In this document: positions 165 through 63,021 of the stretch, piece by piece
Layout of the letters: each line of letters begins with the position of its first letter
Position numbering within the stretch: the first letter of the stretch is position 1
DNA from: Tenacibaculum pacificus
GTDB taxonomy: Bacteria; Bacteroidota; Bacteroidia; Flavobacteriales; Flavobacteriaceae
DNA length: 64,000 nucleotides
Reading direction: 5' to 3'
Assembly (NCBI RefSeq): GCF_027941775.1
Contig: NZ_CP115917.1
Span: forward strand, 1,038,501 to 1,102,500
Notes under the pieces: generated by a model
What the model saw: the letters and a program-made list of their open reading frames with translations, nothing else
What the model was told of the DNA's origin: nothing
Database searches by the model: none
Made by a program: the position numbers and the translations under genes

Positions 165-2373
165 TTATTTTTTTGCTCGTTCAACCAATTCTAATTGTTC
201 TAATTTTGCTTTGGTCGTAAAAATTCCATAATTTATAAAAACGGTTCTTTTTTCAATTTTATCAATAGTACCTACTGAATTCCCATCAATTAAACGCACA
301 CGATCATTTATTTTATAAACGTAAGCAGCTTTTTCAAGGGCTATTTTTTTAGCTTCTTCTTTTTTCTCTTCTCTAATTTTTATAACTTTTTGAAGCACTT
401 CTTTTTCTGTTTTTTTAATAGCTTCTTTTTGTTTTTGATTTGTAATTAAATCTTGTTTCTTTTCAGTTTTTGATAGCTTTTTAAGTGGTGCTTTTTTGAT
501 GCGTTTCGTATTTTCGATAGCAACCCATTTAAAAAATTCGGTTGATAATTCTTTTTTATTATTGGTTTGAAAATACTTGTTTAACAGCTCGTTAGTTTTT
601 CTTCCTAAAGAAAGCATTCGCTGATTATTATCGTATAATTCTTGAAAACCAGAAAGTTTACTTTGTATTTTTTCTTCTTTTTCCTGTAAACTATCAATAT
701 GTTCTTGTCCTTTCGATTTTTGTTTTACTAAGCTATCAGAAGTTTTTTGCAAACGGTTTCGTTCTTTCTGAAGATTAGAAATCGTTTTATCTAAACGGAT
801 TTTTTCAGTTTCAACTCTTTTTTTAGCTCTGTTAATAATGCTATATGGAATTCCATTTTTTTGCGCTACTTCAAAAGTAAACGAACTACCTGCTTGCCCG
901 ATAAATAATTTATACAACGGCTCTAAAGTACGTTCATCAAACTGCATATTTGCATTGGTTACATTATCTAATTCGTTGGCTAAAACCTTTAAATTTGCAT
1001 AATGTGTAGTGATAATTCCAAAGGCTTTTCGTTCATAAAACTCTTCTAAGAAAATTTCAGCTAAAGCTCCACCTAATTCAGGATCAGAACCTGTTCCAAA
1101 TTCATCAATTAAAAATAGGGTGTTATCGTTACATTTTCTTAAAAATGAACGCAATGTTTTTTAAGCGATAACTATAAGTACTCAATTGGTTTTCTATGGA
1201 TTGATTATCTCCAATATCAGTTAAAATAGTATTGAATAAAGTCGTTTCACTACGCTCATGCACAGGAATTAATAAACCACTTTGAAGCATTAATTGTAAT
1301 AAACCAATAGTTTTTAAAGTGATACTTTTTCCACCTGCATTTGGTCCTGAAATAACAATTATTTGTTGTTTTTCATCTAATCGAATGGTTTGCGGAAAGG
1401 TTTCTTTATTTAAGTCTTTATTTTTTTTCCATAAAACAGGATGAAAAGCATCTTTAAAAAACACCTTTTTTTCTTTGCTTATTTTAGGTAATAATCCGTT
1501 GATACTTTTTGCATATTTTGCTTTTGCAGCTACAGCATCTAAATGTGTTAAAAACACCAAATATTCTTCTAATAAAGGTGTGTAAGGATGAATTTTACTA
1601 GCTAAAGCTCTTAGTATTTTAACAACTTCTTGTTTCTCTTCGTAAATTAAGTTTTGTAATTCACGGCTATATGCTAAGGTTGCTTGAGGTGCTATATATA
1701 CAATTGCTCCAGTTTTTGAAGAACCTAATAAGCTTCCTTTTACTTTACGTCGATGCATTGCACTAACGGCTAAAACACGTTGATTATCAATAACTGTTTC
1801 TTTAATATCATCTAAATAACCGCTTGATATATTTCTTGTTAAAGCGTGAGAAAAACTTTCAGATATTTTCCCGCGAATGTTATTGATATCTTTTCTGATT
1901 TGTTTTAAAACAGGCGATGCATTGTCTGAAACAGTACCGTGAGCAGTAATTATTTCTTTAATACTGTCTGAAACAAACGATGTAAATTGTATTTTATCGC
2001 TTAAAGAAAATAAAGTAGGGTAGTAGGTTTGGAATTTTTTCAAGAACTTTTTTTGTTCATTGACTGTTTCCGTAACTGTAGCAACTCTTAAAAAAGCTTC
2101 TGTTTCTAAAAAACTGTTTTCTATGGCTAACCGCTTTGTTTCTTCGGTGATATCTTCAAAAAAATGATTAGGAAGTCTGTTTTCATTCTCAAAAGAAGAA
2201 AGATATTCGTTCACTAAATTTAATTCGAAAAATAATTTTATTTTATTAGAAATAGGCTGAACTTCCAGCGTTTTTTCCTTTCCTAAATTGGTAATGCAAT
2301 GCGCTGCAACTTGTTCTAAAACTGTTGTGAATTCTAAATCTTGAAGCGTCTTATCTGAAATATTGTTAGTCAA
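165..2373 (-). pseudogene. mutS2: MutS2-family DNA-binding ATPase, frameshifted
   Basis: MutS2-type ATPase acting on branched DNA or recombination intermediates, split by one frameshift. The N-terminal 414 residues hold the core/clamp region and Walker A (GPNAGGKS). After an out-of-frame junction near 1129-1156 the other frame continues with Walker B (LFLIDEFGTGSDPE), a long Lys/Glu coiled coil and a KOW-like C-terminus. On the coding strand the junction reads AAAAACATTGCG; removing one T gives the expected L-K-N-M-R-S-F-L. No C-terminal Smr nuclease domain is visible, which I believe is usual for flavobacterial members. The start is TTG at 2373, about 23 nt below a TAAATTTG element. A minus-1 slip on the A-AAA-AAC heptamer would reach a stop within six codons, so programmed frameshifting does not rescue it. 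Family identity is clear; whether the break is real is not. Confidence 0.85.
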
Positions 2374-2396
2374 AAAAAAAGTTTTTATGTAGACAA

Positions 2397-2404
2397 CAAA
2401 TTTA
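2397..2404 (-). promoter_or_regulatory. Putative minus-7 element (TAAATTTG) of mutS2
   Basis: Matches the Bacteroidota TAnnTTTG consensus on the minus strand, 23 nt before the proposed TTG start of mutS2. No well-placed TTG minus-33 element was found. Confidence 0.4.
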
Positions 2405-2471
2405 TAAATTCTTTTCGTTTGGTTTTAGAAATGATACTTCTTTTTTTTGAATTTAAAAAAGTGTAAAAGTG

Positions 2472-2479
2472 TATCTTTG
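2472..2479 (+). promoter_or_regulatory. Putative minus-7 element (TATCTTTG) of ung
   Basis: TAnnTTTG match 23 nt upstream of the ung ATG. A TTG lies 22 bp further upstream (2447-2449), slightly longer than the 19-bp spacing of the SRP RNA promoter in this window. Confidence 0.45.
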
Positions 2480-2502
2480 AATTCTGATAAAAGAGATAAA
2501 AT

Positions 2503-3171
2503 ATGATGGAAGAATTAATGATGAATAATAGTTGGAAAAGTATTTTAAAGCCAGAATTAGAAAAAACATATTTTAAAGAATTATCTAATTTTGTTAATGA
2601 AGAATTTAATATAAATACTTGTTTTCCTAAAAAAGAAAATATTTTTTCAGCATTTGATTATTGTTCTTTTGATGATTTAAAAGTCGTTATTATCGGTCAA
2701 GACCCGTATCATGGTGCAGGGCAGGGAAACGGTTTGTCTTTTTCGGTAAACGATGGAATAAAACATCCGCCATCATTAGTAAATATTTTTAAAGAAATTG
2801 AAACAGATTTGCAAATTTCATATCCTGTTTCTGGCGATTTATCTCGTTGGGCAAAGCAAGGTGTTTTATTATTAAATGCGACTTTAACAGTTAGAGAAGG
2901 TGAAGCAGGAAGTCATCAAAAACAAGGTTGGGAAGAGTTTACTGATGCTGTTATTCAAAAAATATCCGAAGAAAAAAAGGATGTTGTGTTTTTACTTTGG
3001 GGTAAATTTGCCGAAAAAAAAGGAAGTATTATCGATATTCAAAAACATACTATTTTTAAAGCTCCGCATCCATCTCCGTTAGGTGCTTGGCGAGGTTGGT
3101 TTGGTAGTAAACACTTTTCAAAAACAAATGAATTTTTGAAAAGTGAAAACTTACAAATTATCCAATGGTAG
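2503..3171 (+). CDS. ung: Uracil-DNA glycosylase
   Basis: Family 1 UDG, which removes uracil from DNA to start base-excision repair. The water-activating loop GQDPYHG (Asp about residue 67) and the C-terminal minor-groove loop HPSPLGAWRGWFG (His about residue 189) are intact, and the 222-aa length is normal. The first ATG is used because it follows a TAnnTTTG element by 23 nt; ATG at 2521 (MNNSWK) is possible and fits homolog N-termini slightly better. The gene is divergent from mutS2, and its 3' end overlaps the convergent glycosyltransferase by 14 bp. Confidence 0.95.
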   Translation: MMEELMMNNSWKSILKPELEKTYFKELSNFVNEEFNINTCFPKKENIFSAFDYCSFDDLKVVIIGQDPYHGAGQGNGLSFSVNDGIKHPPSLVNIFKEIETDLQISYPVSGDLSRWAKQGVLLLNATLTVREGEAGSHQKQGWEEFTDAVIQKISEEKKDVVFLLWGKFAEKKGSIIDIQKHTIFKAPHPSPLGAWRGWFGSKHFSKTNEFLKSENLQIIQW

Positions 3172-4177
3172 CTACCGTTGGTAAAGTTGTTTGATTATAA
3201 TATGGTGAAATAATAGCATCTAAAATATCTTCAGTTATATCAGGGTAGTCAACCTTAATTTCTTGTTTAGTATCTACCCAAGTAATGATTTTTGAAAGTT
3301 GTTTTTTGTTAAAAGTTTTTAAAACAGGTATGCCCATTTTTTTTAAAGAAAGTGCATTACATTGTTGTTCATATTGGTTTTTCATAGGAATTACCAATAG
3401 TTTTTTTTGAAGGAATAGAGCTTCGGCAGGTGTTTCAAAGCCCGCACCACACATAACTCCTTTACTAGAACTAATACTTTTGATAAAACTATCACCGTTT
3501 ATTGGCTTGATTATAATATTATTTTTTATGATATTTGTTTTAGTGTGTTTTGAGAATACTTCCCACTTAATGTTTTCAATTTTAGATAATATTTTAATTA
3601 TTTTTTTATCACCATAAGCGGGTAAGTAAACAGTATAATGACCTTTGTTAATAATAGGTGTATTTCTTATCTTTTTACGAATAATTGGCGTCGAAATATC
3701 AGAAGAGTAAGCTTTAAAATGAAAACCAAATTTCTTTTTTATTGGGGCGTAGTATCTTAAAATTAAGCGTTCAAAACGAAATGTGCCATGTTTTGGTGCA
3801 TTTTTGTCTAAAACAGCACTTTGATGACTCAATGATACGATGTTACTTTTTTTTATTTTTGCAGCCCAAGAGGTAACTGGTTCAAAATCATTGATAATTA
3901 AATCGTACTCTTCTAAAGGAACTGATTTAATTTCTTTGAATAAATTTTTAAGCTTTGCTTTTTTTATGGTTTGCCAAATATCAATTCCTCCTTTTTTTCC
4001 AAAGATAAAACTTAGTCCGTAATATTTATATTTTACATCAAAAGGAAGTGCTAATTCACATTGATATCCACTAATTAAAACATCAACATCTGCTCTTTGT
4101 TTTAAGTAAGGTATAATTTCAATAGCTCTACTAGCGTGTCCATTTCCTGTGCCTTGAAAAGCATATAATATTTTCAT
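3158..4177 (-). CDS. GT-B-type glycosyltransferase (TIGR00661-like)
   Basis: 339-aa protein resembling the MJ1255/TIGR00661 group of predicted glycosyltransferases with a UDP-glycosyltransferase-like GT-B fold. Visible: an N-terminal nucleotide-fold segment with G-T-G-N-G-H-A-S-R and a C-terminal donor-site-like stretch (CGAGFETPAEALFLQKK). Donor and acceptor cannot be read from sequence. It follows the LpxH-like phosphoesterase by 6 bp and is surely co-transcribed with it, which suggests a lipid- or glycan-linked job in the envelope. It overlaps the convergent end of ung by 14 bp. Confidence 0.75.
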   Translation of the reverse strand: MKILYAFQGTGNGHASRAIEIIPYLKQRADVDVLISGYQCELALPFDVKYKYYGLSFIFGKKGGIDIWQTIKKAKLKNLFKEIKSVPLEEYDLIINDFEPVTSWAAKIKKSNIVSLSHQSAVLDKNAPKHGTFRFERLILRYYAPIKKKFGFHFKAYSSDISTPIIRKKIRNTPIINKGHYTVYLPAYGDKKIIKILSKIENIKWEVFSKHTKTNIIKNNIIIKPINGDSFIKSISSSKGVMCGAGFETPAEALFLQKKLLVIPMKNQYEQQCNALSLKKMGIPVLKTFNKKQLSKIITWVDTKQEIKVDYPDITEDILDAIISPYYNQTTLPTVATIG

Positions 4178-4183
4178 AGAGTT

Positions 4184-5053
4184 TTAGTTTTTAATATTAA
4201 ATTCGTGTAAAAGATCTTTAAAAAGCTCGCTGTTGCTACTTTCTGCAGCTACAAACTCTTCATTGTCTTCGTTTACTTCTCTGTTTATTTTTTTAGCTAT
4301 TTCATCTTTTTCGTATTCATATAATGACCACGTTTTATTAGTATATTCTAAGGCTGTTAAGTTTTCAACCCAATCACCAGAGTTTAAATAGGTAGTTGAT
4401 CCGTCTTCATTTTCAATCAATTTCATTTCAGGTTGATGTATATGTCCACATACAACATAATCATAGCCGTTAGAAATAGCAATATCAGAAGCTGTAGTTT
4501 CAAAATTATTGATAAATTTTACAGCACCTTTAACACTATTTTTTATCTTTTTAGAGAAAGATAATTTTCCGTAACCTAGTTTTTGACTAAACCAGTTCAC
4601 AGCAATATTTATCAGAATTAATGTATCGTAACCAATGCTACCAAGTTTAGCTAGCCATTTAGAGTGTTGCATGGTAACATCAAAAACATCACCATGAAAA
4701 AACCAGCCTTTTTTGCCGTCTATATTTAGTATTACTTTATTTACAATTTCAAAATTACCAAGACTAAAGCCTTTGAATTTACGAAGCATTTCATCATGAT
4801 TACCTGTTATATAGTAAACTTTGGTATCCGAAGTTATATAAGACATCAGTTGCTTTATTATTTTCATATGAGATTTAGGAAAATAACTTTTCTTAAATTG
4901 CCAAATGTCAATAATATCACCATTTAAAATTAAAATTTTTGGTTCTACAGATTTTAAATAACTATGAAGTTCTTTAGCTTTACATCCATAAGTACCTAAG
5001 TGAATATCAGAAATAACAACAATATCTAATTTTCGTTTCTTATTTTTTTTCAT
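4184..5053 (-). CDS. UDP-2,3-diacylglucosamine diphosphatase-like metallophosphoesterase
   Basis: Calcineurin-like phosphoesterase of the LpxH-related type. All five metal blocks are present in order: SDIHLG, NGDIIDIW, GNHDEM, HGDVFD and CGHIHQ. LpxH enzymes cut UDP-2,3-diacylglucosamine to lipid X, the step between LpxA/C/D and the disaccharide synthase; the other lipid A genes lie at the right end of the window, so this is a reasonable but unproven role. I start at ATG 5053 (289 aa) because a TATATTTG element at 5084-5091 would put transcription start inside any longer reading from the TTG at 5086. The glycosyltransferase gene follows 6 bp downstream. Confidence 0.8.
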   Translation of the reverse strand: MKKNKKRKLDIVVISDIHLGTYGCKAKELHSYLKSVEPKILILNGDIIDIWQFKKSYFPKSHMKIIKQLMSYITSDTKVYYITGNHDEMLRKFKGFSLGNFEIVNKVILNIDGKKGWFFHGDVFDVTMQHSKWLAKLGSIGYDTLILINIAVNWFSQKLGYGKLSFSKKIKNSVKGAVKFINNFETTASDIAISNGYDYVVCGHIHQPEMKLIENEDGSTTYLNSGDWVENLTALEYTNKTWSLYEYEKDEIAKKINREVNEDNEEFVAAESSNSELFKDLLHEFNIKN

Positions 5054-5083
5054 TTTAAAAAGTATACTAATATTGTATTTGTA

Positions 5084-5091
5084 CAAATATA
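5084..5091 (-). promoter_or_regulatory. Putative minus-7 element (TATATTTG) of the phosphoesterase operon
   Basis: TAnnTTTG match on the minus strand, 30 nt before the ATG at 5053. It decides the start, because a TTG-initiated longer ORF would overlap the element itself. Confidence 0.45.
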
Positions 5092-5180
5092 CTTTTCAAA
5101 TGTATTTTAAAGTTAATTTAATTGTGAAGTGTTGGTAATCAATTTTTTAAGTAAATGTAAAGTTTGTGTTTTTTTAATGT

Positions 5181-5208
5181 AAAAAGCTCGGTTAAAACCG
5201 AGCTTTTT
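5181..5208 (-). terminator. Rho-independent terminator of secA
   Basis: Perfect 11-bp stem AAAAAGCTCGG / CCGAGCTTTTT with a 6-nt loop, about 30 nt beyond the secA stop. Confidence 0.8.
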
Positions 5209-5235
5209 ATAAAGTAATTTATTTAAAAAAGGTGT

Positions 5236-9034: not shown

Positions 9035-9608
9035 TTATAGTTTTTCAGGAATCCATTTTATTTCTTCTACTTTCAAGTCTTTGGACAATTTTCGTGCCAG
9101 TACAAAAAGATAGTCAGAAAGTCGGTTTAAATACATTAAAACAGTATTATTAACGGCTTCTTCTTCATTTAAAGCTACAGATAAACGTTCAGCTCTACGG
9201 CATACACAGCGAGCTATGTGACAAAATGACACTATTTCACTGTCCGCCAGGTAAAATGAAATGAGTCATTTGCGGTAAACTCTCATTCATTAAATCAATA
9301 TTATCTTCTAAAAATTGAATAGAAGTGTCAGTTATTTTATGAATATTTAAGCGCTCTTTACCACTTTTTAGGGTTTCTTTTTCAGGAGGAGTGGCAAGCA
9401 TTGCTCCTAAAATAAATAAGTCGCTTTGAATTTTAAGTAATGTTTTGTTTAAAGATCCTTCCGTATTTTTATCTTTTATTAATCCGATATATGAATTTAA
9501 TTCATCTACAGTACCGTAACTTTCAATACGTAAATGATGTTTAGGTACACGTGTTCCTCCAAATAATGCTGTAGTTCCTTTGTCACCAGTTTTAGTATAT
9601 ATTTTCAT
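9035..9608 (-). pseudogene. PduO-type cob(I)alamin adenosyltransferase, frameshifted
   Basis: Transfers adenosyl from ATP to cob(I)alamin to make coenzyme B12. The first frame (from 9608) begins MKIYTKTGDKGTTALFGG, the ATP-binding N-terminus, and stops after HFILPGGQ at 9237. A second frame (9232-9035) holds the C-terminal signature [16 protein letters not shown]. The coding strand at the break reads GGACAGTGAAATAGTG; deleting the G restores GGA-CAT-GAA-ATA-GTG (G-H-E-I-V), which joins both halves into a normal protein of about 190 aa. It stands apart from other B12 genes; no cobalamin riboswitch was seen. Family certain; lesion real or artefact undecided. Confidence 0.85.
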
Positions 9609-23885: not shown

Positions 23886-24473
23886 CTATTTTTTCTTGGC
23901 ATTTGGAAAACGCATTCTGTAACCTGCGTCTACTTTTCCTTTAGAAATGTTTTCTAACTTCTTTTTAATCAATCTTTTCTTTAAAGTTGATAATTTATCA
24001 GTAAATAAAACACCATCGATATGGTCGTATTCACGCTGAAAAACACGTGCCGCTAAACCATTTAAAACTTGAGTATGCTTTTCAAAATTTTCATCTTGAT
24101 ACTCAATTGTTATTGTTTCTTGACGAAAAACATCTTCACGAACATTAGGTATACTTAAACAACCTTCGTTAAAAGCCCATTCTTCACCTTCTTCTTTGAT
24201 GATTTTTGCATTTATAAATACATGATTAAAGCTTTCTAAGGCTTTACGGTCTTCTTCTGATAAGTCTTCATCATCAGCAAAAGGAGAGGCATCGATTAAA
24301 AATAAACGAATGTCTTTTCCTATTTGAGGTGCAGCTAATCCGACACCTTGTGCATTATACATTGTTTCTTTCATATCGGCAATTAATTTTTCTAACTGCG
24401 GATAATCTTTATCGATTTCTGTTCCTACTTTACGTAATACGGGATCTCCGTAAGCAACAATGGGTAAAATCAT
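23886..24473 (-). CDS. def: Peptide deformylase with an altered metal-binding motif
   Basis: Removes the formyl group from nascent protein N-termini. 195 aa from ATG 24473 (MILPIVAYGDPVLRK is the usual start; the longer reading is not). Motif I GVGLAAPQIG and motif II EGCLSIPNV are intact. Motif III, normally QHExDH with two His metal ligands, reads QREYDHIDG: Arg147 replaces the first ligand. The codon is CGT where CAT is expected, one base (24034). As Def is normally essential and no second copy is in the window, either the enzyme is dead or altered, or this base is wrong. Confidence 0.93.
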   Translation of the reverse strand: MILPIVAYGDPVLRKVGTEIDKDYPQLEKLIADMKETMYNAQGVGLAAPQIGKDIRLFLIDASPFADDEDLSEEDRKALESFNHVFINAKIIKEEGEEWAFNEGCLSIPNVREDVFRQETITIEYQDENFEKHTQVLNGLAARVFQREYDHIDGVLFTDKLSTLKKRLIKKKLENISKGKVDAGYRMRFPNAKKK

Positions 24474-26935: not shown

Positions 26936-27695
26936 ATGATTCCAAAAATTATTCATTTCTGTTGGTATGGTAAAGGAGAATATAATGAAACGATAAAAAA
27001 ATGTATAGCTTAAATGGGAAGATAAATTACCCGATTATACTATTAAAAAATGGGATGAAACAAATACCCCTTTTGATAAACTTCCTTTTTTAAAAATGCT
27101 TTACAAGCAAAAAAAGTGGTCGTTTATTACAGATTATATTCGTTTATATGCTATTTATAAAGATGGTGGTATTTATGTTGATACAGATATTGAAATGGTG
27201 AAAAGTTTTGATTCTTTACTTAAGGAAAAATCGTTTGTAGGATTCCAATCAAATTTAACAGATAGCAAATACCCATTAAATTCAGCGGTAATAGGTAGTG
27301 AAAAAGGAAATAATTTTATTTTAGATTGTATTAAAGAAACAGAAAGAAAACAGCGTTTGTATTTTAATGCTATGGGAGGACCACCAATTGTTTCTAAAGT
27401 TTTATTAAATTACGGGTTAAAAGAATATAAAAAGCAGCATATAAAAAATGTTTTATTATTACCTATAGCTTATTTTTATCCTTTTCCACGGGGTGGAAAG
27501 TATACTGATAGCTGTATAAAAGAGGAAACATTATGTATTCATTGGTGGGAAGATTCTTGGGGGAATAAACAAAAAGGATTCAAATACTTATTAGATAGTT
27601 TAAAAAGAAAAATTATAAAATTACCTTTATTAACTAAAAATAAAATGATCTATTTTTTTAATAAAAATAATTTTTATTTAATAGATAAAATATAG
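26936..27695 (+). pseudogene. GT32-like (DXD sugar-binding) glycosyltransferase, frameshifted
   Basis: ATG 26936 gives MIPKIIHFCWYGKGEYNETI, the typical start of capsular/LPS glycosyltransferases with the DXD sugar-binding region, but the frame stops at 27011. From 27015 the other frame continues WEDKLPDYTIKKWDE, then FITDYIRLYAIYKDGGIYVD, holding the DTDIEM DXD motif, to the stop at 27695. The break reads ATAGCTTAAATGG; removing one T gives I-A-K-W-E and a 252-aa protein of normal shape. Donor and acceptor unknown. Followed 1 bp later by the sialyltransferase-like gene. An internal ATG at 27096 would omit the N-terminal fold. Confidence 0.82.
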
Positions 27696-28734: not shown

Positions 28735-29282
28735 TGAAAGAAGTAATTGAAGTATTAACAACTGGAAAAACAATACTTTATCCAACTGATACTGTTTGGG
28801 GAATTGGTTGTGATGCAACAAATTTTGAGGCAGTTCAAAAAATTTATAAGCTAAAAAATAGAGAAGAATCTAAAAGTTTAATCATTTTAGTTGATTCTAT
28901 TGAAATGCTTAAAGATTATGTTGAGAATATTCCAAAAGAAGTATTGTTTTTTTTAAAAAAAATAAAAGAACCAACAACAATTATATATAATAATCCAATA
29001 AGATTAGCTATTAATACTATTGCAATAGATAATACTATCGCTATTCGAGTAGTTAAAAATAAATATTGTCAATCTTTGATTAAAGAGTTTGGAAAGCCAA
29101 TTGTATCTACCTCTGCAAATATTAGCGGAGAAGTATCACCTAAGTCTTTTGAATTTATATCAGAAAAAATAAAAAAAGGTGTTGATTATATTGTTGAATA
29201 TGATGAAAATACTGTAAATACAAAACCATCTACCATTTTAAAAATAATGGAAGATGGCTCTATAATAACTTTAAGAAAATAA
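28734..29282 (+). CDS. YrdC/Sua5-family threonylcarbamoyl-AMP synthase-like protein
   Basis: 182 aa YrdC-fold protein: LYPTDTVWGIGCDA, VQKIYKLKNRE, IAIRVV and PIVSTSANISGE. This is the single-domain TsaC/YwlC type that makes threonylcarbamoyl-AMP for tRNA t6A37; tsaE, from the same pathway, is at 56973. GTG start overlapping the previous stop by one base (TAGTG), so translationally coupled. Odd setting between a glycosyltransferase and pseI. It may be the genome's only Sua5/TsaC or a paralog. Confidence 0.85.
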   Translation: MKEVIEVLTTGKTILYPTDTVWGIGCDATNFEAVQKIYKLKNREESKSLIILVDSIEMLKDYVENIPKEVLFFLKKIKEPTTIIYNNPIRLAINTIAIDNTIAIRVVKNKYCQSLIKEFGKPIVSTSANISGEVSPKSFEFISEKIKKGVDYIVEYDENTVNTKPSTILKIMEDGSIITLRK

Positions 29283-35872: not shown

Positions 35873-36905
35873 TTATATTTCAAAATTTGGATCTACATGC
35901 TTTTTAACTAATGCTCGTAAACTAGCTACAGTTTCCCATTCAGTATTATTATTAGAGTTATAAGAAAAACCTTTAGGAACTGTAATTCCGTTAAAAGCTT
36001 TTTTATAATCTTCTATTGTATACGTAGAATATGGCGAGCTTTGAGGTAATATAGCGTAATATTTCCCTAAGTCTACTGTTGTAAAAGAGTCTGAAGAAGT
36101 AATCATTTCTTCATGAAGTTTTTCACCAGGGCGTATTCCTACTTCTTTTTGCTCTAGTTCTGGAGCAATAGCAGTTGCTACATCTATAATGTTATAAGAA
36201 GGTATTTTAGGAACAAAAACTTCACCACCCCATTGCTTTTTCAATCGCATAGAAAACCATTTCACAACCGTCTTCTAAAGAGATGTTAAAGCGTGTCATT
36301 TCTGTATCCGTAATTGGAAGAAAAGTTGCACCTGATTTTTTCTTATTTAAGAAAAAAGGCATTACAGAACCGTTTGACCCCATAACATTTCCGTATCTAA
36401 CAACAGAAAATTTAATGTCTCGTTTACCTTTTATATTATTAGCAGCAATAAATAATTTATCAGATGCTAATTTTGTAGCTCCGTATAAATTAATAGGCGC
36501 TGCAGCTTTATCTGTAGATAATGCAACAACATTTTTAACACCTGCTTTTAAAGCGGCATCAATAACATTTTCAGCACCATTTATATTTGTTTTTACACAT
36601 TCCATAGGATTGTATTCTGCTAAATGAACATGTTTCATTGCAGCTGCATGAATTACAATATCAATATCTTCAAAAGCACTTTCTAGTCTTTTGGCATCTC
36701 TAACATCACCAATAAAGTAGCGTATTTGAGGATATTCTGACTCAGAGAATTCTTGAGCCATTTGAAAATGTTTTTGTTCGTCTCTAGAAAGTATAACAAG
36801 ACGTTTTACATCGGGAAATCTATTTAAAATTAATTTGGTAAACATTTTACCAAAAGAACCTGTACCACCAGTAATTAAAATAGATTGATTATTTAAGTTT
36901 AGCAT
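35873..36905 (-). pseudogene. pseB: UDP-GlcNAc 4,6-dehydratase PseB, frameshifted
   Basis: First enzyme of the pathway (UDP-GlcNAc 4,6-dehydratase/5-epimerase). The N-terminal frame has ILITGGTGSFGKMF, IHAAAMKHVHLAEYNPMEC, catalytic-region NLYGATKLASDKLF and ends prematurely at 36222. The other frame resumes with WGGEVFVPKIPSYNI and runs to 35873. On the coding strand the break is GAAAAAGCAATGGGG; dropping one A either from the five-A run (K-Q-W-G-G) or from GCAATGG (K-A-W-G-G) restores a protein of about 344 aa. Loss of PseB would silence the whole pse operon, so this lesion matters. Confidence 0.9.
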
Positions 36906-37075: not shown

Positions 37076-38497
37076 ATGCAAGATCAATACTATAAAGAGG
37101 CAATTTCTGCCGAAATATTTCAATATATAAGTAAAGCAGCTGAAGAATTAAAACTAGAAAGTTATGTGATTGGTGGCTTTGTTCGCGACTTTATTTTAGA
37201 ACGAGGCACCGCTAAAGATATCGATGTAGTTGCTGTTGGTAGTGGTATCGAATTAGCAAAAAAAGTAGCTTCTTTATTGCCAAATAAACCAAAGGTTCAA
37301 GTTTTTAAAACATATGGGACAGCAATGTTGCGTTTTAAAGATGTTGAAATAGAGTTTGTTGGGGCGCGTAAAGAATCTTATACGGAAGATAGTAGGAATC
37401 CAGAAGTGCAATCTGGTACGTTACAAGATGATCAAAACAGACGTGATTTTACCATAAACGCATTAGCTTTAAGTTTAAATAAAAACACCTTCGGATTATT
37501 GTTAGATCCTTTTGATGGTATTTCTGATTTAGAAGCTAAAATAATTAAAACTCCGTTAGATCCTGATATTACCTATTCTGATGACCCATTACGTATGATG
37601 CGTGCCATTCGTTTTGCATCTCAATTAAATTTTGTTATTGAGCAAGAGTCGTTAAGTGCTATTGCTAAAAATGCAAAACGTATTGATATTATCACCAAAG
37701 AAAGAATAATTGTAGAATTAAATAAAATATTAGCTTCTGATAAACCTTCTATTGGATTTTTATTATTAGAAGAAACAGGTTTGTTAGAACGTATTATTCC
37801 TGAATTGATTGCTTTAAAAGGAGTAGAGGAAGTTGAGGGGCAAAAACATAAAGATAATTTTTATCATACTTTAGAAGTTGTTGATAATATTGCTAAAAAC
37901 ACTGAAGATGTTTGGTTACGTTGGGCAGCTTTATTGCATGATATTGGAAAAGCTCCAACAAAACGTTATCATAAAAAACAAGGTTGGACATTTCACGCAT
38001 ACGAATTTGTAGGTTCTAAAATGGTTTTTAAACTATTTAAGCGTTTAAAAATGCCATTGAATAATAAAATGAAATTTGTTCAAAAAATGGTAATGTTAAG
38101 CTCTAGACCAATTGTTTTAGCTAGCGATGTAACAGATTCAGCAGTGCGTAGGTTGGTTTTTGATGCGGGTGATGATGTCGATTCATTAATGACTTTATGT
38201 GAAGCTGATATAACTACTAAAAACCCTAAGAAGTTTAGTCGTTATCATAAAAATTTCGAACTTGTTCGTGAAAAAATTAAAGAAGTTGAAGAGCGAGATA
38301 AAGTTCGTAATTTTCAGCCACCAATTACTGGAGAAGAAATTATGAAAGCGTTTAATTTAACACCACGTAGAGAAATTGGGCAAATAAAAGAAGCTATAAA
38401 AGAAGCAATTTTAGAAGGTGAAATTCCTAATGAACATAAAGCTTGTTTTGATTTTATGATATCAAAAGGAAAGAAATTAGGATTAGAAGTTACTTAA
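37076..38497 (+). CDS. cca: CCA tRNA nucleotidyltransferase / HD-domain protein
   Basis: 473 aa from ATG 37076. Nucleotidyltransferase core with VIGGFVRDFI and the two metal aspartates in AKDIDVV, RNA-binding helices (DDPLRMMRAIRFASQL), then an HD domain (LLHDIGKAPTK). Adds or repairs the 3' CCA of tRNA. The HD domain may give phosphatase activity. Start chosen from the promoter at 37001-37028. Divergent from the pse operon, with its own terminator. Confidence 0.92.
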   Translation: MQDQYYKEAISAEIFQYISKAAEELKLESYVIGGFVRDFILERGTAKDIDVVAVGSGIELAKKVASLLPNKPKVQVFKTYGTAMLRFKDVEIEFVGARKESYTEDSRNPEVQSGTLQDDQNRRDFTINALALSLNKNTFGLLLDPFDGISDLEAKIIKTPLDPDITYSDDPLRMMRAIRFASQLNFVIEQESLSAIAKNAKRIDIITKERIIVELNKILASDKPSIGFLLLEETGLLERIIPELIALKGVEEVEGQKHKDNFYHTLEVVDNIAKNTEDVWLRWAALLHDIGKAPTKRYHKKQGWTFHAYEFVGSKMVFKLFKRLKMPLNNKMKFVQKMVMLSSRPIVLASDVTDSAVRRLVFDAGDDVDSLMTLCEADITTKNPKKFSRYHKNFELVREKIKEVEERDKVRNFQPPITGEEIMKAFNLTPRREIGQIKEAIKEAILEGEIPNEHKACFDFMISKGKKLGLEVT

Positions 38498-40422: not shown

Positions 40423-42132
40423 TTATAAATTTAATTCTTTAATAATTCTTTGAATTTTAGTGTCTAATTCTTTTTCGATAGTAACGGCATTCTCAACCGA
40501 ATCTAATGCTATTTTAACACTAAAATAAAATTTTATTTTTGGCTCTGTACCACTTGGGCGGGCTGCCATTTTTGTTCCGTCGGTGGTTTGATAAATCAAT
40601 ACATTCGATTTTGGAATATCCATAATTACTTCTTCACCAGTAATTAAATTCTTTTTAATCGATGATTGATAATCATATAAAAACTCCACTTTAGCATTGT
40701 CCATTTCTGTAAAAGGATTCTTGCGTAAATCAACCATCATTTGTTTGATTTTTTGTGCGCCATCCATTCCTTTTTTAACGATAGAAATTAAGTGTTCTTT
40801 ATAAAAATTATTTCGAGTATATAAATTTAATAATTCATAATAAAACGAACTGTTATTTGCTTTTGCATCCGCAGCAATTTCACAAGCTAATAAAGCAGCA
40901 GTTACAGCATCTTTATCACGAACAAAATCACCAACCATATAACCAAAACTTTCTTCACCACCGCCAATAAAATCAAGCTCAGGGAAATCTTTAATCATTT
41001 TAGCAATCCACTTAAAACCTGTTAAACCAACTTTAGTTTCAACACCGTATGAACTTGCTATTTCGTTTACCAAATTAGTAGAAACAATGGTAGAACCTAC
41101 AAATTGTTTTCCGTTTAATTTTTCGTTGTTTTTCCAATCATTAATTAAAAAATCGGTCATCATACTCACGGTCTGATTTCCGTTTAATAACTTCATGTTT
41201 CCTTCTAAATCACGAACAGCGATACCAATTCTATCAGAATCAGGATCTGTTCCTAAAACTATATCAGCACCTACTTTGTTAGCTAAATCAACAGCCATTT
41301 GTAAAGCTTCAGGTTCTTCAGGATTTGGAGATTTTACCGTTGGAAAACTTCCATCTGGTTCGGCTTGTTCATCAACAATGTGAACTTGCGTATAACCAGC
41401 ACGTTTTAAAACTTCAGGAATTAATTTAATAGAAGTTCCGTGTAAAGAAGTAAAAGCGATTTTTAAATCTTTACGACCTTTTACATTAAAAGTTCCATTT
41501 TTAATAGATGCTTGCCAAAAAGCTTCATCAATTTCACTTCCGATGCTCGAAATTAATTCTTCATTTGCTTTAAAATTAATATCAGTAAAAGCTAACGAAT
41601 TTACTTCATTAATAATTTCAGTATCTTCAGGTGGTACAATTTGACCTCCGTCAGACCAATATACTTTGTAACCATTATATTCTGGCGGATTATGAGAAGC
41701 TGTTAAAACAATACCAACATCACAACCTAAATGACTTACGGCAAATGATAATTCAGGAGTAGGGCGTAGGTCTTCAAAAAGAAAAACCTTGATGTTATTT
41801 GCAGAAAAAACATCGGCAACAACTTTAGATAACCATTTACTATCATGACGACAGTCATAACCAATAGCAACTTTTAATTCTTTCTTCGGATGTATTTGAT
41901 GTAAATAATTACTTAAACCTTGTGTTGCTTTTCCTAAAGTATATTTATTAATTCGGTTTGTTCCTGCACCTACAATTCCACGCATTCCACCTGTACCGAA
42001 TTCTAAATTTTTATAAAAACGATCTGCTAAATCATCAGATTTTTCGCTTATTAATTGTTCAATTTCATTTCTAGTTGCTAAATCAAACGATTCAGAAAGC
42101 CATAATTTAGCTTTATTTAAAATCTCTTCCAT
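40423..42132 (-). CDS. Phosphosugar mutase (phosphoglucomutase/phosphomannomutase)
   Basis: 569 aa alpha-D-phosphohexomutase: catalytic phosphoserine loop VLTASHNPPEYNGYKVYW, metal loop GTDPDSDRIGIAV, sugar loop GGGEESFGYMVGD and C-terminal phosphate loop RPSGTEPKIKFYF. The long form resembles PGM2/PgcA. Supplies hexose-1-phosphates for glycan synthesis; exact sugar preference not determinable. Confidence 0.92.
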   Translation of the reverse strand: MEEILNKAKLWLSESFDLATRNEIEQLISEKSDDLADRFYKNLEFGTGGMRGIVGAGTNRINKYTLGKATQGLSNYLHQIHPKKELKVAIGYDCRHDSKWLSKVVADVFSANNIKVFLFEDLRPTPELSFAVSHLGCDVGIVLTASHNPPEYNGYKVYWSDGGQIVPPEDTEIINEVNSLAFTDINFKANEELISSIGSEIDEAFWQASIKNGTFNVKGRKDLKIAFTSLHGTSIKLIPEVLKRAGYTQVHIVDEQAEPDGSFPTVKSPNPEEPEALQMAVDLANKVGADIVLGTDPDSDRIGIAVRDLEGNMKLLNGNQTVSMMTDFLINDWKNNEKLNGKQFVGSTIVSTNLVNEIASSYGVETKVGLTGFKWIAKMIKDFPELDFIGGGEESFGYMVGDFVRDKDAVTAALLACEIAADAKANNSSFYYELLNLYTRNNFYKEHLISIVKKGMDGAQKIKQMMVDLRKNPFTEMDNAKVEFLYDYQSSIKKNLITGEEVIMDIPKSNVLIYQTTDGTKMAARPSGTEPKIKFYFSVKIALDSVENAVTIEKELDTKIQRIIKELNL

Positions 42133-44088: not shown

Positions 44089-45006
44089 TTATTTATCATT
44101 TAAATTCAAATTACTTCTTGGGTGATGTAATTCAACAACTTCTTTTAAATAACTAGTATCTAAATGTACATAAATTTCGGTGGTTGTAATACTTTCACGT
44201 CCTAATAATTGTTGAATAACACGTAAATCTGCACCATTTTTTAATAAATAAGTAGCAAAAGAGTGGCGTAAGGTATGAGGTCCAATACTTTTTTTCAGAT
44301 TTGTTTTAATCGCTAATTCTTTAAGGATTATAAATATCATTTGACGGCTCAGTCGTCTTCCTCGTCTGTTTAAAAAGATAATATCTTCTTCTTTTTCCTT
44401 TGGAGTTACCTCAGGACGAATATCTTTAATATAAAATTTTAAACGTTTAATTGTTGTTATATGTATAGGTACAAAACGATATTTATTTCCTTTTCCTAAT
44501 ACACGAATGTATCCGTCATCAAAAAATAAATCAGATAATTGCAAATTAATTAATTCACTTACACGTAAACCACAACTAAAAATGGTTTCTATAATGGTTT
44601 TATTTCGTTCGCCTTGCGGATGACTTAAATCAATAGCATTTATTAAATCGTCAATTTCTTCTTTTTCTAAAGTATCGGGTAGTTTTCTTATTACATTGGG
44701 GCTTTCAATTAAATCGGTAGGATTGTCTTTTCTGTAATCTTCAAAAATTAAATAATCAAAAAAACTACGTAAGCCCGAAATTAAACGTGCTTTGCTTCTC
44801 GGATCTATTTCTTTACTGATTTCATATATAAATTGTTGAACGGTATCCGAAGTAATATTTATAGGAGTATCATTTTTTTTGAGTGTATCAATAAATAAAA
44901 TTAGTTTTTTTACATCCCTTGTATAGCTGTCAATAGAGTTTTTAGCAAGACCTCTTTCTATTTTTAAGTAGCTTGTGTAGTCCGATATTCCTTGTTTCCA
45001 ATTCAT
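44089..45006 (-). CDS. xerD: Tyrosine recombinase XerD with a catalytic His-to-Arg change
   Basis: 305 aa site-specific recombinase that resolves chromosome dimers with XerC at dif. N-terminal SAM-like domain, then Arg in SCGLRVSEL, His244/Arg247 in HTLRHSFATYL and the nucleophile Tyr279 in TTTEIYVHLD. The residue matching E. coli XerD His270 (LLGH) is Arg270 here: LLGRESITTTEIY. The codon is CGT (44199-44197), one base from CAT. Numbering matches the E. coli enzyme exactly. The change would be expected to weaken strand exchange, unless it is a base error. No neighbouring mobile-element genes, so not an integrase. Confidence 0.92.
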   Translation of the reverse strand: MNWKQGISDYTSYLKIERGLAKNSIDSYTRDVKKLILFIDTLKKNDTPINITSDTVQQFIYEISKEIDPRSKARLISGLRSFFDYLIFEDYRKDNPTDLIESPNVIRKLPDTLEKEEIDDLINAIDLSHPQGERNKTIIETIFSCGLRVSELINLQLSDLFFDDGYIRVLGKGNKYRFVPIHITTIKRLKFYIKDIRPEVTPKEKEEDIIFLNRRGRRLSRQMIFIILKELAIKTNLKKSIGPHTLRHSFATYLLKNGADLRVIQQLLGRESITTTEIYVHLDTSYLKEVVELHHPRSNLNLNDK

Positions 45007-55764: not shown

Positions 55765-55776
55765 CGTAAAATCAGC

Positions 55777-57455: not shown

Positions 57456-57555
57456 ATTAGAAGCAATTTCCCGCTTTCCGCACTCGCTTTTTTTGTTTTT
57501 TCGAAAAGAAAAACAAAAAAGAGCTCAAACAAATGCTTCAATCGGGGCTAGGCAT
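57456..57555 (-). repeat. 100-bp palindromic intergenic repeat, copy B
   Basis: Reverse-strand copy of the element at 25042-25141: identical outer thirds, central arms differ. Here the stem pair is G-C where copy A has A-T, and the loop region is CTTTTCG. Lies between tsaE and porX, both transcribed leftward, so it would be read through in any porX-tsaE transcript. Confidence 0.85.
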
Positions 57556-57608
57556 TTTTACTAAATTTCTGCAAACTTATTTTTTTAAATAAAATCAGTT
57601 TTAATAAA

Positions 57609-59152
57609 TTATTTAGGACTGTAAATTGCACAGGGAATAATTACTTCTTCTAAAGAGATTCCACCACGTTGATAGGTGTTTTTAAAATACTTAACAAAAT
57701 GATTATAATTATTAGGATAAGCAAAAAATAAATCTTCTTTTGCAAAAATAAACGGGCTATTTATGGCTACGCTTGGTAAAAAAATGTCTTTAGGATTTTC
57801 AACAGCAAACACATCTTTTTTCTCGTAGCTTAAACTTTTACCTGTTTTATATCGCAAATTAGAACTGATATTTTTATCACCAATAACTTTCGTAGGGTTT
57901 TTAGAATTAATAGTTCCGTGATCGGTAGTAATAATTAGTTTTTGTCCTATTTTTTGAGCCTTCTGAATAATTTCATATAAAGGAGAGTTTTTAAACCAAC
58001 TAACTGTTAACGATCTATATGCTTTATCATCACCAGCAAGCTCTTTTATTACTTCCATTTCTGTTTTCGCACGCGACAACATATCTACAAAATTATAGAC
58101 AACAACTGTTAAATCATTTCCTTTTGTACCGTTATAATTGTCAGCTAATTCTTTTCCGCTTTTAAGCGATACAATTTTATAATATTCGTGTTTAATATTT
58201 AAATTTAATCTTTTTATTTGAGCATCTAAAAAATCAGGTTCGTACAAATTTTTACCACCTTCATCAGTATCATTTTTCCATAAATTAGGATGTTTTTTTT
58301 CCATTTCTAAGGGCATTAATCCTGAGAAAATAGCATTTCGAGCATATTGTGTAGCAGTAGGTAAAATACTATAATAAGAATGTTCTTCTTCTTTTTTATA
58401 ATAATTATTGATAAAAGGTTCTAAAACTCGATACTGGTCATATCTAAGGTTATCTAAAACAACAAGTAATACGCCTTTATCTTTTGAAAGTTCAGGAACT
58501 ACAAAATCTTTAAATAAAGTATGAGAAAAAGTAGGCTTATCATAAGAAGTAAGCCAATCCTGATATTTTTTTGATAAATTTAAAAAAATGCGAATTTGCT
58601 TCTGATTTTTGAGATTCTAATATTTCTAACATTCCTGTGTCATTAATATTTTCTAACTCTAATTCCCAATGAACTAATTTTTTATATAAATTAACCCATT
58701 CTTCATGCGAATTTACCATGGCTAAATCCATAGAAATTTTTCTAAATTCTTGTTGATAACTAGAGGTTGTTTTTTCTGAAATTAATCGAGAATGATCTAA
58801 GTTCTTTTTTAAACTTAACAATATTTGATTCGGATTTACAGGTTTTATTAAATAATCGGCAATTTTAGATCCAATTGCTTCTTCCATAATATATTCTTCT
58901 TCGCTTTTGGTAATCATAACCACAGGAAGATTTGCATCTTTTTGTTTGATTAAAGCTAAGGTTTCTAATCCTGTTATTCCAGGCATATTTTCATCTAAAA
59001 AAACAATATCAAAATTGTGTTCTTCTACTAAATCAATAGCATCTGCACCATTTGTCGACTTAGTTACCGAGTAATTTTTTTTCTAAAAATAAAATATGCG
59101 GTTTTAATAAATCGATTTCATCATCTACCCAAAGTATCTCTATGTTTTTCAT
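57609..59152 (-). pseudogene. porX: PorX-like response regulator/PglZ phosphatase, two frameshifts
   Basis: Response regulator of the PorX/PorY system linked to type IX secretion. Three frames join into about 515 aa. Frame 1 from ATG 59152: KNIEILWVDDEIDLLKPHIL, stopping after 30 codons at an eight-A run (59075-59082) where seven or ten A are needed. Frame 2: DIVFLDENMPGITGLETL with the phospho-Asp, SKIADYLIKPVNPNQIL and the linker to SEANSHFFKFIKK, broken at a seven-A run (58566-58572) where six are needed. Frame 3: YQDWLTSYDKP, VVLDNLRYDQ, SILPTATQYARNAIFSGLMP, LTVVVYNFVD and TTDHGTIN, the alkaline-phosphatase-like PglZ domain, to 57609. Both breaks are homopolymer length changes. An ATG at 58316 would give only part of the PglZ domain. 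Confidence 0.9.
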
Positions 59153-59300
59153 ATAATTTTATATTTTACTTTAAAAATAACGTTTAAAAACGCATTTGTT
59201 GTATTTATAATAGCTAAAAATAAGTTAATAAAGCCTTTGTTTATTTGGTTTTGTTGATAAATAATGATTATTTTGTTAGAAATTGAACTATTTATAGATT

Positions 59301-60539
59301 TTGAAAAATAGAAAAACAAATAAATTAAAGATTATAAACGATCCTATTTACGGATTTATAACCATTCCAAATTCTTTAATATTTGATATAATTGAGCATC
59401 CTTATTTTCAAAGATTACGACGAGTTACTCAAATGGGATTATCTAATATGGTATATCCTGGAGCAAATCATACTCGTTTTCATCATGCAATTGGCTGTAT
59501 GCATTTAATGCAAAAAGCGGTACAAGTATTAAGAAACAAGGATATTAATATTTCAGATGAAGAAGCAAATGCCTTATATGTTGCTATTTTATTACATGAT
59601 ATTGGTCATGGTGCTTTTTCACATGCTTTAGAACATAGTATTGTAAGTGGTGTTTCTCATGAGGAAATTTCATTGAAATTTATGCACGCTTTAAATAAAG
59701 AGTTTAATGGTCAATTAAGTTTAGCTATTGAAATATTTGAAGGAAAATATCATCGAAAATTTTTATATCAATTAATATCAAGCCAATTAGATATTGATCG
59801 TTTAGATTACTTGAAAAGAGATAGTTTTTATACAGGAGTTACTGAAGGAAATATTTCTTCGGATCGTTTAATAGCGATGATGAATGTTGTTAAAGATCAA
59901 TTAGTAATTGAAGAAAAAGGAATTTATTCTGTTGAACAATTTATTATTGCTCGTCGTTTAATGTATTGGCAAGTATATTTACATAAAACTGGTTTGGTTG
60001 CCGAAAATACTTTAGTAAATGTTTTAAAAAGAGCAAAAGAACTAGCAATAAAAGGTGTTGAATTGCCAGCAGGAAAAGCATTAAAATATTTTTTATATAA
60101 TCCTATTTCTGAAGATAACTTTACAGATACGATTTTAAAAATATTTGCTGAATTAGATGATTATGATGTGATGTCGGCAATAAAAGAATGGGTACATCAT
60201 GACGATTTTGTGCTTTCATCTTTAGCAAAAATGATTATTCATCGAAATTTATTTAAAATTGAAATTCAGAACGAACCTTTTGAAGAAACTTATATCAATA
60301 AAATTTATAAAAAAGTTACAGAAAATAGCATCATAAAAACTGCTGATTTAAGTTATTTCGTTTTATCAAATAAAATTAAACATCAGGCATATAACACTAA
60401 TGAACCGATTAAAATTTACACCAAAAAAGGAAAATTAAAAGACATCGCTAAGGCGTCAGATCAATTAAATTTAAGAGCTTTAACAAAGCCTGTCATTAAA
60501 TATTACTTATGTTATCCTAAAAAAACACAATTAGTTTAA
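59301..60539 (+). CDS. HD-domain (dGTPase/SAMHD1-like) phosphohydrolase
   Basis: 412 aa. HPYFQRLRRVTQMGLSNMVY, TRFHHAIGCMHLM, the HD pair in LLHDIGHGAFSHALEH and SSQLDIDRLDYLKRDSFYTG are those of dNTPase-like HD proteins. Hydrolyses dNTPs or related phosphoesters; true substrate unknown. Start is TTG 59301; there is no nearby ATG, and the N-terminus matches the family. Divergent from porX. Confidence 0.88.
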   Translation: MKNRKTNKLKIINDPIYGFITIPNSLIFDIIEHPYFQRLRRVTQMGLSNMVYPGANHTRFHHAIGCMHLMQKAVQVLRNKDINISDEEANALYVAILLHDIGHGAFSHALEHSIVSGVSHEEISLKFMHALNKEFNGQLSLAIEIFEGKYHRKFLYQLISSQLDIDRLDYLKRDSFYTGVTEGNISSDRLIAMMNVVKDQLVIEEKGIYSVEQFIIARRLMYWQVYLHKTGLVAENTLVNVLKRAKELAIKGVELPAGKALKYFLYNPISEDNFTDTILKIFAELDDYDVMSAIKEWVHHDDFVLSSLAKMIIHRNLFKIEIQNEPFEETYINKIYKKVTENSIIKTADLSYFVLSNKIKHQAYNTNEPIKIYTKKGKLKDIAKASDQLNLRALTKPVIKYYLCYPKKTQLV

Positions 60540-60581
60540 TTGTTAAACAGGTCTGATAAGATGTAATTAAACAAAAATAAT

Positions 60582-60589
60582 TACTTTTG
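60582..60589 (+). promoter_or_regulatory. Putative minus-7 element (TACTTTTG) of the lpx operon
   Basis: Ends 6 nt before the lpxD ATG, so transcription would begin at or a base or two before the start codon: a leaderless message. Confidence 0.45.
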
Positions 60590-60595
60590 CAAGCA

Positions 60596-61636
60596 ATGAA
60601 ATTTACAGCAAAACAAATAGCAGAAATTTTAGAAGGAGAAATTGTTGGTAATCCCGACGTTGAGGTTTCTAAATTATCTAAAATAGAAGAAGGAACAAAA
60701 GGGTCATTAACTTTTTTATCTAATCCGAAATATAATAATTATATATATTCAACAGCAGCTTCTGTAGCTATTGTGAATACTACTTTTCAATTAGAAAAAG
60801 AAACGGAAACAACTTTAATTAAAGTTGCAGATGCCTATGGTGCTTTTTCTAAATTATTAGAATTTTACAACGAAGTTAAAAATAATAAACAAGGACGTGA
60901 AAATCCGCACTTTATTGCTGAATCTGCTTCTATAGGAGAAAAAGAGTATATTGGTGCTTTCGCGTATATTGGAGAGAATGTTGTGTTGGGTAAAAATGTG
61001 AAAATTTATCCAAACTCATACATAGGTGATAATACGAAAATAGGCGATAATACAACTATTTTTGCAGGTGTTAAAATTTATTCAGAAACTGAGATAGGGA
61101 TGAATTGTAAAATTCATTCAGGTTGTGTTATTGGTTCAGATGGTTTTGGATTTGCACCAACAGAAGATGGGGATTACAAAACGATACCTCAAATTGGAAA
61201 TGTTATTATAGAAGATAATGTAGATATCGGTGCTAATTCAACTATTGATAGAGCGACTTTAGGGGCAACAATTATTAGAAAAGGAGTAAAGTTAGATAAC
61301 CAAATTCAAGTTGCTCATAATGTAGAAATCGGTGAAAATACCGTAATTGCTTCTCAAACAGGTATTGCAGGTTCTGCAAAAATCGGTAAAAACTGTATGA
61401 TTGGTGGTCAGGTTGGTATTGTGGGACATATTACTATTGGTAATAATGTAAGAATACAAGCAAAATCTGGTATTGGTAAGAGTTTAAAAGATAAAGATAT
61501 TGTACAAGGAGCGCCAGCTTTTGGATATTCTGATTATAGTAAATCGTACGTTTACTTTAAGAATTTACCAAAGTTAGCATCTAAAATAGATAAAATAGAA
61601 AAAGAGTTAAATGCTCAAAAAATAAAAAATGAGTAA
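60596..61636 (+). CDS. lpxD: UDP-3-O-(3-hydroxyacyl)glucosamine N-acyltransferase
   Basis: 346 aa. N-terminal uridine-binding domain ([20 protein letters not shown]) then hexapeptide left-handed beta-helix, catalytic His in [20 protein letters not shown] and [11 protein letters not shown]. Third lipid A step. ATG 60596 is used because the TTG reading upstream overlaps the minus-7 element. 8-bp overlap with lpxC/fabZ. Confidence 0.95.
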
Positions 61637-63021
61637 GCAACAAAGAACAATACAGAATGAAATTACATTAACTGGTGTAGGATTACATACAGGTAATGAC
61701 GTAACAATGGTATTTAAACCAGCTCCGGCAAATCATGGGTTTGCTTTTACAAGAGTTGACTTAGAAGGAGCGCCAACAATTCAGGCCAAAGCAGAATATG
61801 TAACTAATACGCAAAGAGGTACAAACTTTGAGCATAAAGGTGTGCAAATTCAAACATCAGAGCACGTTTTAGCGGCAGCTGTTGGTCTAGATATTGATAA
61901 TTTAATAATTGAAATAAATGCTTCTGAGCCTCCTATTATGGATGGTTCTTCAAAGTTTTTTATCAAAGCATTAGAAGAAGCTGGAATCGTAGAGCAAGAC
62001 GCTGACATTGATGAGTATGTGGTAAAAGAAATTATATCATATAAAGATGAAGAGACAGGAAGTGAAATTATTTTAATGCCTTCTGATGAATATCAAATAA
62101 CTACCATGGTAGATTTTGGTACTCAAGTTCTAGGTACTCAAAATGCTACTTTAAATACCATTTCTGATTTTAAAGAAGAAATTTCGGAAGCAAGAACTTT
62201 TAGTTTCTTACATGAAATTGAAATGTTATTAGATAACGATTTAATTAAAGGTGGAGATTTAAATAATGCTATTGTATATGTTGATAAAGAATTATCAGAA
62301 AGTACTACGGAAAAATTAAAGAAAGCTTTTAATAAAACTGATATAAAAATACAATCTAATGGGATTTTAGATAATCTAGAATTACATTGGGCTAATGAAG
62401 CTGCTCGTCATAAATTATTAGATGTAATTGGTGATTTAGCATTAGTTGGTACTCGTATAAGAGGTAAAATTATAGCTAATAAACCAGGGCATTCAATTAA
62501 TACAGCTTTTGCTAAGAAATTAGCAAAAATGATAAAGTTAGAGAAGCGTAATTATGTTCCTCAGTATGACTTGAATAAGAAGCCATTAATGGATATTCAT
62601 CAAATAATGGACATCTTACCTCATAGACCACCATTTTTATTGATAGATCGTATTTTAGAGCTATCGGATACGCATGTTGTAGGTATGAAAAATGTTACAA
62701 TGAATGAACCTTTTTTTACAGGTCATTTTCCAGGAGCACCCGTAATGCCAGGAGTTTTACAAGTAGAAGCAATGGCACAATGTGGTGGTGTTTTAGTATT
62801 AAACACCGTACCAGATCCTGAAAATTATTTAACTTATTTCAATGAAAATGGATAATGTTAAATTTAAACAAAAAGTGCTTCCAGGAGATACTTTAACTTT
62901 TAAATGTGAATTAATAACTCCTATCAGAAGAGGTATTTGTCATATGAAAGCTTTTGGATATGCAAATAACAAAGTGGTTGTAGAGGCCGAATTAATGGCT
63001 CAAATAGCCAAAAAACAGTAA
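61629..63021 (+). pseudogene. lpxC/fabZ: Fused LpxC deacetylase / FabZ dehydratase, frameshifted near the C-terminus
   Basis: Bacteroidota-type fusion. Residues 1 to about 310 are LpxC, the zinc deacetylase and committed lipid A step, with zinc ligands in [12 protein letters not shown] and [13 protein letters not shown] and [11 protein letters not shown]. From about residue 320 the FabZ hot-dog domain follows ([35 protein letters not shown]). The frame stops at 62855 after [10 protein letters not shown]. The other frame continues [17 protein letters not shown] to QIAKKQ at 63021. Reading TATTTCAATGAAAATG as TATTTCATGAAAATG (one A less) restores Y-F-M-K-M-D and about 464 aa. Both activities are normally essential, so a base error is likely. 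Overlaps lpxD by 8 bp and precedes lpxA by 3 bp. Confidence 0.9.

Follow-up and report, generated by a model that had tools for sequence, protein, structure and literature searches.

Insertions and replacements at CATG in the Tenacibaculum pacificus genome are probably consensus base-calling errors

A 64,000-nt stretch of the Tenacibaculum pacificus chromosome (contig NZ_CP115917.1, positions 1,038,501 to 1,102,500, here called the window) carries several genes which are broken or altered exactly at the tetramer CATG. With a probability of about 0.88, these lesions are not mutations and arose when the consensus of a nanopore-only assembly was miscalled at CATG, which is probably N6-methylated. 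This explanation is favored because the pattern recurs in a held-out region of the same genome, is absent from two relatives and fits the nanopore-only provenance of the assembly, and because the changed residues are kept by all other listed homologs. An earlier note, made from the letters of the window alone, had suspected systematic miscalls at CATG and had considered their concentration beyond chance. The first claim is strongly supported by the same evidence, including the fit of the provenance to sequencing on R9.4.1 flow cells only, and the second is borne out by the insertion counts given below.

The genome consists of one contig of 2,791,743 bp, and positions are given as window or contig (C1) coordinates. 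Judged by a single gene, its closest named relatives belong to Tenacibaculum. Reading frames from G018 and G008, the two nearest relatives, were mapped onto the T. pacificus DNA. The first region covered 264 kb, the window and 200 kb to its right, with extra relatives where available. It gave 160 non-redundant frames (142 from G018 and 18 from G008) over 160,241 nt of T. pacificus coding sequence. The held-out region covered 120 kb situated 1.1 Mb away and was compared with G018 and G008 (69 frames, 77,868 nt). The prediction regarding CATG was fixed in writing before this region was analyzed. Both regions together represent 238 kb of compared sequence. Bulk substitution counts were abandoned, because natural turnover of CATG is too high for them to discriminate; frame breaks were counted instead, together with replacements private to one genome at conserved codons. 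A codon was taken as conserved in the first region when at least three relatives shared the same amino acid, and in the held-out region by the weaker rule of two agreeing relatives.

Insertions and replacements at CATG

All the uncompensated single-base insertions detected against the G018 and G008 frames were at CATG (21/21), and 20 of them were inside the tetramer. The first region showed 24 frame-changing events, 15 of which were net gains of one base. Two of these 15, at positions 28967 and 259825 of the T. pacificus sequence, were left out of the count, each being offset by a loss of one base within 26 bases. The remaining 13 were all at CATG, 12 inside it and one directly after an intact copy; eleven read CANTG and one read CGCTG where the relative has CATG. 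The other nine events (five of -1, two of -2, one of -5 and one of +5) did not fall inside CATG. As junctions within CATG make up only about 0.4% of all junctions, the chance probability of finding 12 of 13 insertions inside the tetramer is near 1e-28. The held-out region showed 13 events. All eight net gains of one base were inside CATG and read CANTG, the sole +2 event was also at CATG, and the rest comprised two -1, one -25 and one -10.

The two relatives served as controls. In the first region, G008 on G018 frames gave five events in 80,946 nt with none at CATG, and G018 on G008 frames gave no event in only 2,762 nt. In the held-out region, G008 gave five events in 53,624 nt, three of them net +1, and G018 gave two in only 245 nt, again with none at CATG. 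The pooled G008 controls thus hold ten events, four of them net +1, and 0/10 at CATG.

The extra base in the 19 CANTG cases was T in six, A in six, G in four and C in three. AA beside CATG on one strand accompanied 19/21 insertions against 100/484 intact sites (p 5e-11). AA-flanked CATG was scarce in the T. pacificus sequence, with 2.6 per 10 kb compared to 4.3 in G018 and 3.9 in G008. Two hits were found only 34 bases apart within one gene. A looser scan with the frames of all relatives gave three further uncompensated +1 events, which are excluded from the 21; one of them (position 162500) lies directly after CATG and the other two are taken up below. Separately, a 5-base insertion against 3/3 relatives was seen in an A-rich stretch off CATG at position 208128 of the 264-kb sequence (C1:1246628).

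Private replacements showed the same preference. The first region has 257 single-base replacements at conserved codons which are private to T. pacificus. Ten of the 257 start from CATG, compared to 2/282 in G018 and 1/264 in G008. At the central bases of the tetramer, eight of these ten show A to G or T to C, which is 8/72 of all changes of that class, against 0/37 in each control. The eight are drastic (five His to Arg, one Cys to Arg, one Met to Val and one Met to Thr), and among the other 64 changes of the class mild ones such as Ile to Val and Lys to Arg are commonest. A to G replacements at CATG in the held-out region numbered 6/144 in T. pacificus, 0/94 in G018 and 0/123 in G008. Over both regions, 14/216 private A to G changes at conserved codons are at CATG against 0/291 in the relatives (Fisher p 5e-6). 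Insertions therefore outnumber visible substitutions 21 to 14. Among CATG sites in the coding sequence compared in the first region, about 8% (21/258) show a visible error, and errors at synonymous and non-conserved positions would raise this figure. The substitutions have no preference for an AA flank (2/8, first region only), so CATG itself is the word common to both kinds of error. A motif longer than CATG was considered and ruled out by this absence of AA preference.

Affected genes of the window

The affected sites of the window are collected in Table 1. The five departures from CATG listed in the earlier note, in mutS2, the adenosyltransferase gene, def, xerD and lpxC/fabZ, are all present in the sequence. 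Its coordinates are exact for four of them, and the 5-mer of lpxC/fabZ lies one base lower than it gave. AA follows CATG in four of the five, as it had said. pseB, which it proposed as a possible sixth, fits, as its frame breaks at the place named, where a CA-N-TG word stands. The window also has four private replacements at CATG which were not on its list. Its view that conservation predicts CATG at these sites holds, fully or partly, for four of the five. The adenosyltransferase gene is the exception, as 0/6 relatives have CATG there (aligned words are, for example, CACG, CACC and CATC), and only the T. pacificus bases themselves spell CATG after removal of the extra base.

Table 1. Genes of the window with a lesion at CATG (window coordinates)
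Gene	Position	Strand	Lesion	Relatives
mutS2	1152..1156	-	one extra base, coding strand CATTG, frame broken	6/6 unbroken
cobalamin adenosyltransferase	9238..9242	-	one extra base, coding strand CAGTG, then AA	6/6 unbroken
def (peptide deformylase)	24032..24035	-	coding strand CGTG	CATG in 3/3 aligned
pseB	36231..36235	-	CAATG (CATTG on + strand) at frame break; probable sixth case	
CCA tRNA nucleotidyltransferase	38364..38367	+	private Cys to Arg at CATG	3 agree
phosphohexomutase	41167..41170	-	private Met to Val at CATG	3 agree
xerD	44196..44199	-	coding strand CGTG; conserved tyrosine-recombinase His reads Arg	
porX (type IX secretion system (T9SS) response regulator)	57609..59160, end approximate	-	two private changes at CATG sites	
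lpxC/fabZ fusion	62840..62844	+	one extra base (CAATGAA), frame broken in FabZ part	12/12 unbroken

The broken genes are still recognizable by their domain matches. Two open reading frames of mutS2 match positions 2-404 and 398-692 of TIGR01069, and relatives read CATG at the site in 3/6. The pseB region has two open reading frames matching positions 2-220 and 214-323 of TIGR03589, with frames offset as for one extra base; this probable case was judged from the profile matches, the frames and the word at the break. The lpxC/fabZ fusion matched an LpxC domain and a partial FabA-like domain, and at its site nine of 12 relatives have CATG and three have TATG.

The two point changes hit residues of very high conservation. 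Alignment of the deformylase to a solved one showed Arg in place of the conserved HExxH His. His occupies the changed position in all 119 other homologs among the best 120 of 7899 (own protein included). At the xerD site, relatives have CATG in 6/9 and the synonymous CACG in 3/9, and accordingly His in 9/9. His is likewise present in 119/119 other homologs of XerD (best 120 of 7996, own included), in the solved XerD 1a0p and in the conspecific T. salmonis, this being the one site compared with the hybrid-assembled strain. Apart from its changes at CATG, porX shows two 2-base deletions in A-rich runs, and the gene is intact in 12/12 relatives compared.

Provenance, competing explanations and candidate methylases

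The last base of the contig belongs to the start codon of rpiB, the last open reading frame (minus strand), and the first long gene encodes RNase R. In PMC9864904, MinION R9.4.1 was the only platform used for ten salmon isolates, with the native LSK109 kit and base calling by Guppy 6.0.1 in sup mode. Medaka polishing was applied to every isolate and Trycycler assembly to most of them, among them barcode 5; short reads were not used, and rpiB set the orientation of the circular chromosomes. Barcode 5 is isolate 18-2881-A, the proposed 'T. pacificus', with 2.79 Mb in one contig and no plasmids. By its size, contig number, rpiB orientation and species neighborhood, the analyzed genome fits this isolate, a native R9.4.1-only Medaka-polished assembly and the proposed type strain of 'T. 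pacificus'. PMC12617846 reports 18-2881-A as conspecific with T. salmonis P3-BQ1 (average nucleotide identity 96.58%), gives CheckM completeness as 97.77 for 18-2881-A and 99.16 for P3-BQ1, and states that P3-BQ1 was assembled from Nanopore and Illumina data and that 18-2881-A has not been deposited in any culture collection.

Methylation of CATG is the best inference for the cause of the errors. CATG would be modified in native DNA of 18-2881-A, most likely to N6-methyladenine on both strands, and the R9.4.1 Guppy model may not have been trained on the resulting signal. Where AA follows the tetramer, the caller would tend to insert an arbitrary middle base, giving CA-N-TG; elsewhere it would tend to read A as G, or T as C on the other strand. 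Medaka, fed with the same reads, would leave these errors in place.

Several observations weigh against this explanation. The modification is inferred from assembled sequence. Frame breaks of -1, -2, -5, +5 and larger in the T. pacificus sequence are not at CATG, and two uncompensated +1 events of the looser scan are off it, one at position 27014 (seen with one distant relative) and the other at 166918 (one relative, tRNA-like sequence). The pseB and mutS2 sites have no AA flank, and the reference relative itself does not have CATG at 9/21 insertion sites. Bulk A to G exchange at CATG, with synonymous sites counted too, is not elevated in T. pacificus. It is 26/261 from G018 to T. pacificus and 36/217 in reverse, 17/192 from G008 and 46/184 in reverse, and 28/228 and 45/259 between G008 and G018. 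Where the relatives are unanimous for the tetramer, T. pacificus departs from CATG in 7/23 cases (p 0.026); G008 departs in 9/25 (p 0.028) too, so this measure does not discriminate. On the side of the enzyme, relatives of the candidate D12 methylase described next are widespread across genomes (5827 homologs).

The D12 class includes the CATG methylases of the NlaIII and HpyAI kind from Neisseria and Helicobacter. The genome has one D12 adenine methylase (PF02086 match, C1:1824982-1825818), which is intact with 279 aa and no stop, and was assigned to MTase_II by PADLOC. Its neighbors are a thymidylate-synthase-like gene, phage baseplate and tape-measure genes and tail genes, and owing to the adjoining baseplate and tape-measure genes it is probably prophage-borne. 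The prophage-like block at C1:1824338-1834634 (L210 9339-19635) holds the D12 methylase, the thymidylate-synthase-like gene, a collagen-like repeat protein, a tail fibre, a baseplate hub and a tape measure. Among the 78 genomes of the genus searched, three, this one included, gave a D12 match, the two others being weak. Additional strains of Tenacibaculum have closer copies according to a protein search, in which the top listed one, from T. salmonis, is 94% identical. No name among the best 120 of the homologs states a target, and no PDB relative was found. The D12 enzyme is the best candidate for the writer of CATG methylation, although this is less certain than the errors themselves. The earlier note had proposed an NlaIII-type methylase in the strain; an adenine methylase is indeed present, but the 'NlaIII-type' label is tentative, and the only D12 gene found lies among phage tail genes. 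PF05315, for an NlaIII/IceA-like endonuclease, was unmatched in the genome, but the same search matched no control genome and is uninformative. No methylase of the PF01555 family was found in the genome.

The strongest competing explanation keeps the miscalls and changes their source: a modification other than N6-methyladenine, or another enzyme. It is possible, at clearly lower odds, and it overlaps with the preferred explanation where the enzyme alone differs. Base calling can be upset by whatever modified base passes the pore, and the genome does have further methylases, namely a type I HsdM-like protein, a 1089-aa protein with N6_Mtase matches and a C5 methylase. Against it, type I and fused enzymes mostly recognize longer words that are not palindromes, the A to G misreads point to adenine, and the C5 gene has a frame break of its own close to an A7 run, possibly a further error. 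This C5 cytosine methylase gene (C1:1891936-1892876; L211 1213-2456) is split over two frames with no CATG at the break; either a homopolymer error in this assembly or a true disruption could account for it.

The earlier note had named a real mutational process as the alternative. Here methylated CATG would be hypermutable, through A to G deamination and slippage insertions, and the lesions would truly be present in the cell. The restriction of the private changes to one lineage and the indels off CATG agree with it. LpxC, deformylase and XerD have established roles which are hard to dispense with, and a cell with all the lesions in LpxC/FabZ, deformylase and XerD real would hardly grow. As essential genes are affected, this explanation is very unlikely. 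It is further opposed by the His residues, kept in all 119 other listed homologs of each protein, by the two lesions only 34 bases apart, and by the bulk A to G exchange, which is not elevated as a real process would make it. To our knowledge, no repair product carries an arbitrary base at the center of a tetramer. It is just as improbable that a part of the A to G changes is real, with fast mutation at the sites of a prophage methylase whose phage enzyme leaves both a mutational and a sequencing footprint. Coincidence of ordinary divergence and ordinary nanopore indels with CATG, or selective reading, is extremely improbable: turnover of CATG is high among the compared species and several other tetramers depart as often, but all 21 insertions against the nearest-relative frames, eight of them held out, are at CATG and none of the ten G008 control events is.

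Two further features of the sequence were observed. GATC is strongly under-represented, at 0.39 of expectation, with 0.30-0.49 in four of five relatives and 0.70 in the fifth. Short repeats of about 70-120 bases (L165 10075-10170 and 16010-16124; L170 16273-16352 and 16457-16527) matched at dozens of places in contigs of two relatives, often in mutually opposite orientation, and look like a dispersed, palindromic family.

Relation to known systems

If base calling is the source, the broken or variant-looking deformylase, XerD, MutS2, LpxC/FabZ and PorX of this genome should not be taken as biology. A finished assembly alone can reveal the methylation motif of a strain, by an excess of one-base insertions and A to G replacements at one palindrome. 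With this signature, public nanopore-only genomes can be screened for motif-bound errors without any reads, and it offers a lead to methylases whose target is unknown. A literature search of titles and abstract openings found nothing linking Tenacibaculum to CATG methylation or methylation errors, and no CATG error with a CA-N-TG insertion signature.

Similar errors are reported for other motifs. PMC6591954 places about 70% of Oxford Nanopore Technologies (ONT) consensus errors of one K. pneumoniae benchmark in Dcm motifs (CCWGG). These errors are alike in being nanopore-only, massed in one short palindromic methylation motif and often surviving signal-level polishing. However, Dcm errors are cytosine-based, whereas here adenine is suspected in CATG and any letter may be inserted at CATGAA. 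A/G and T/C ambiguities near methylation are described in PMC11610573, and resemble the present replacements in the direction of the misreads (A to G, T to C), in the use of native DNA, in their dependence on a motif and in their variation between strains. That report mainly concerns Kit 14 and two-base ambiguities, and the word 'insertion' is absent from its main text; in contrast, the present data fit R9.4.1 and insertions predominate. PMC10689673 detected CATG methylation of H. pylori in ONT signal and its loss in a methylase mutant. The hpy methylase shares the same tetramer and its modification is visible in nanopore signal, but there the enzyme and target were tested by a mutant and here they are deduced from sequence. 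The present case adds one more motif to a type of artefact already known.

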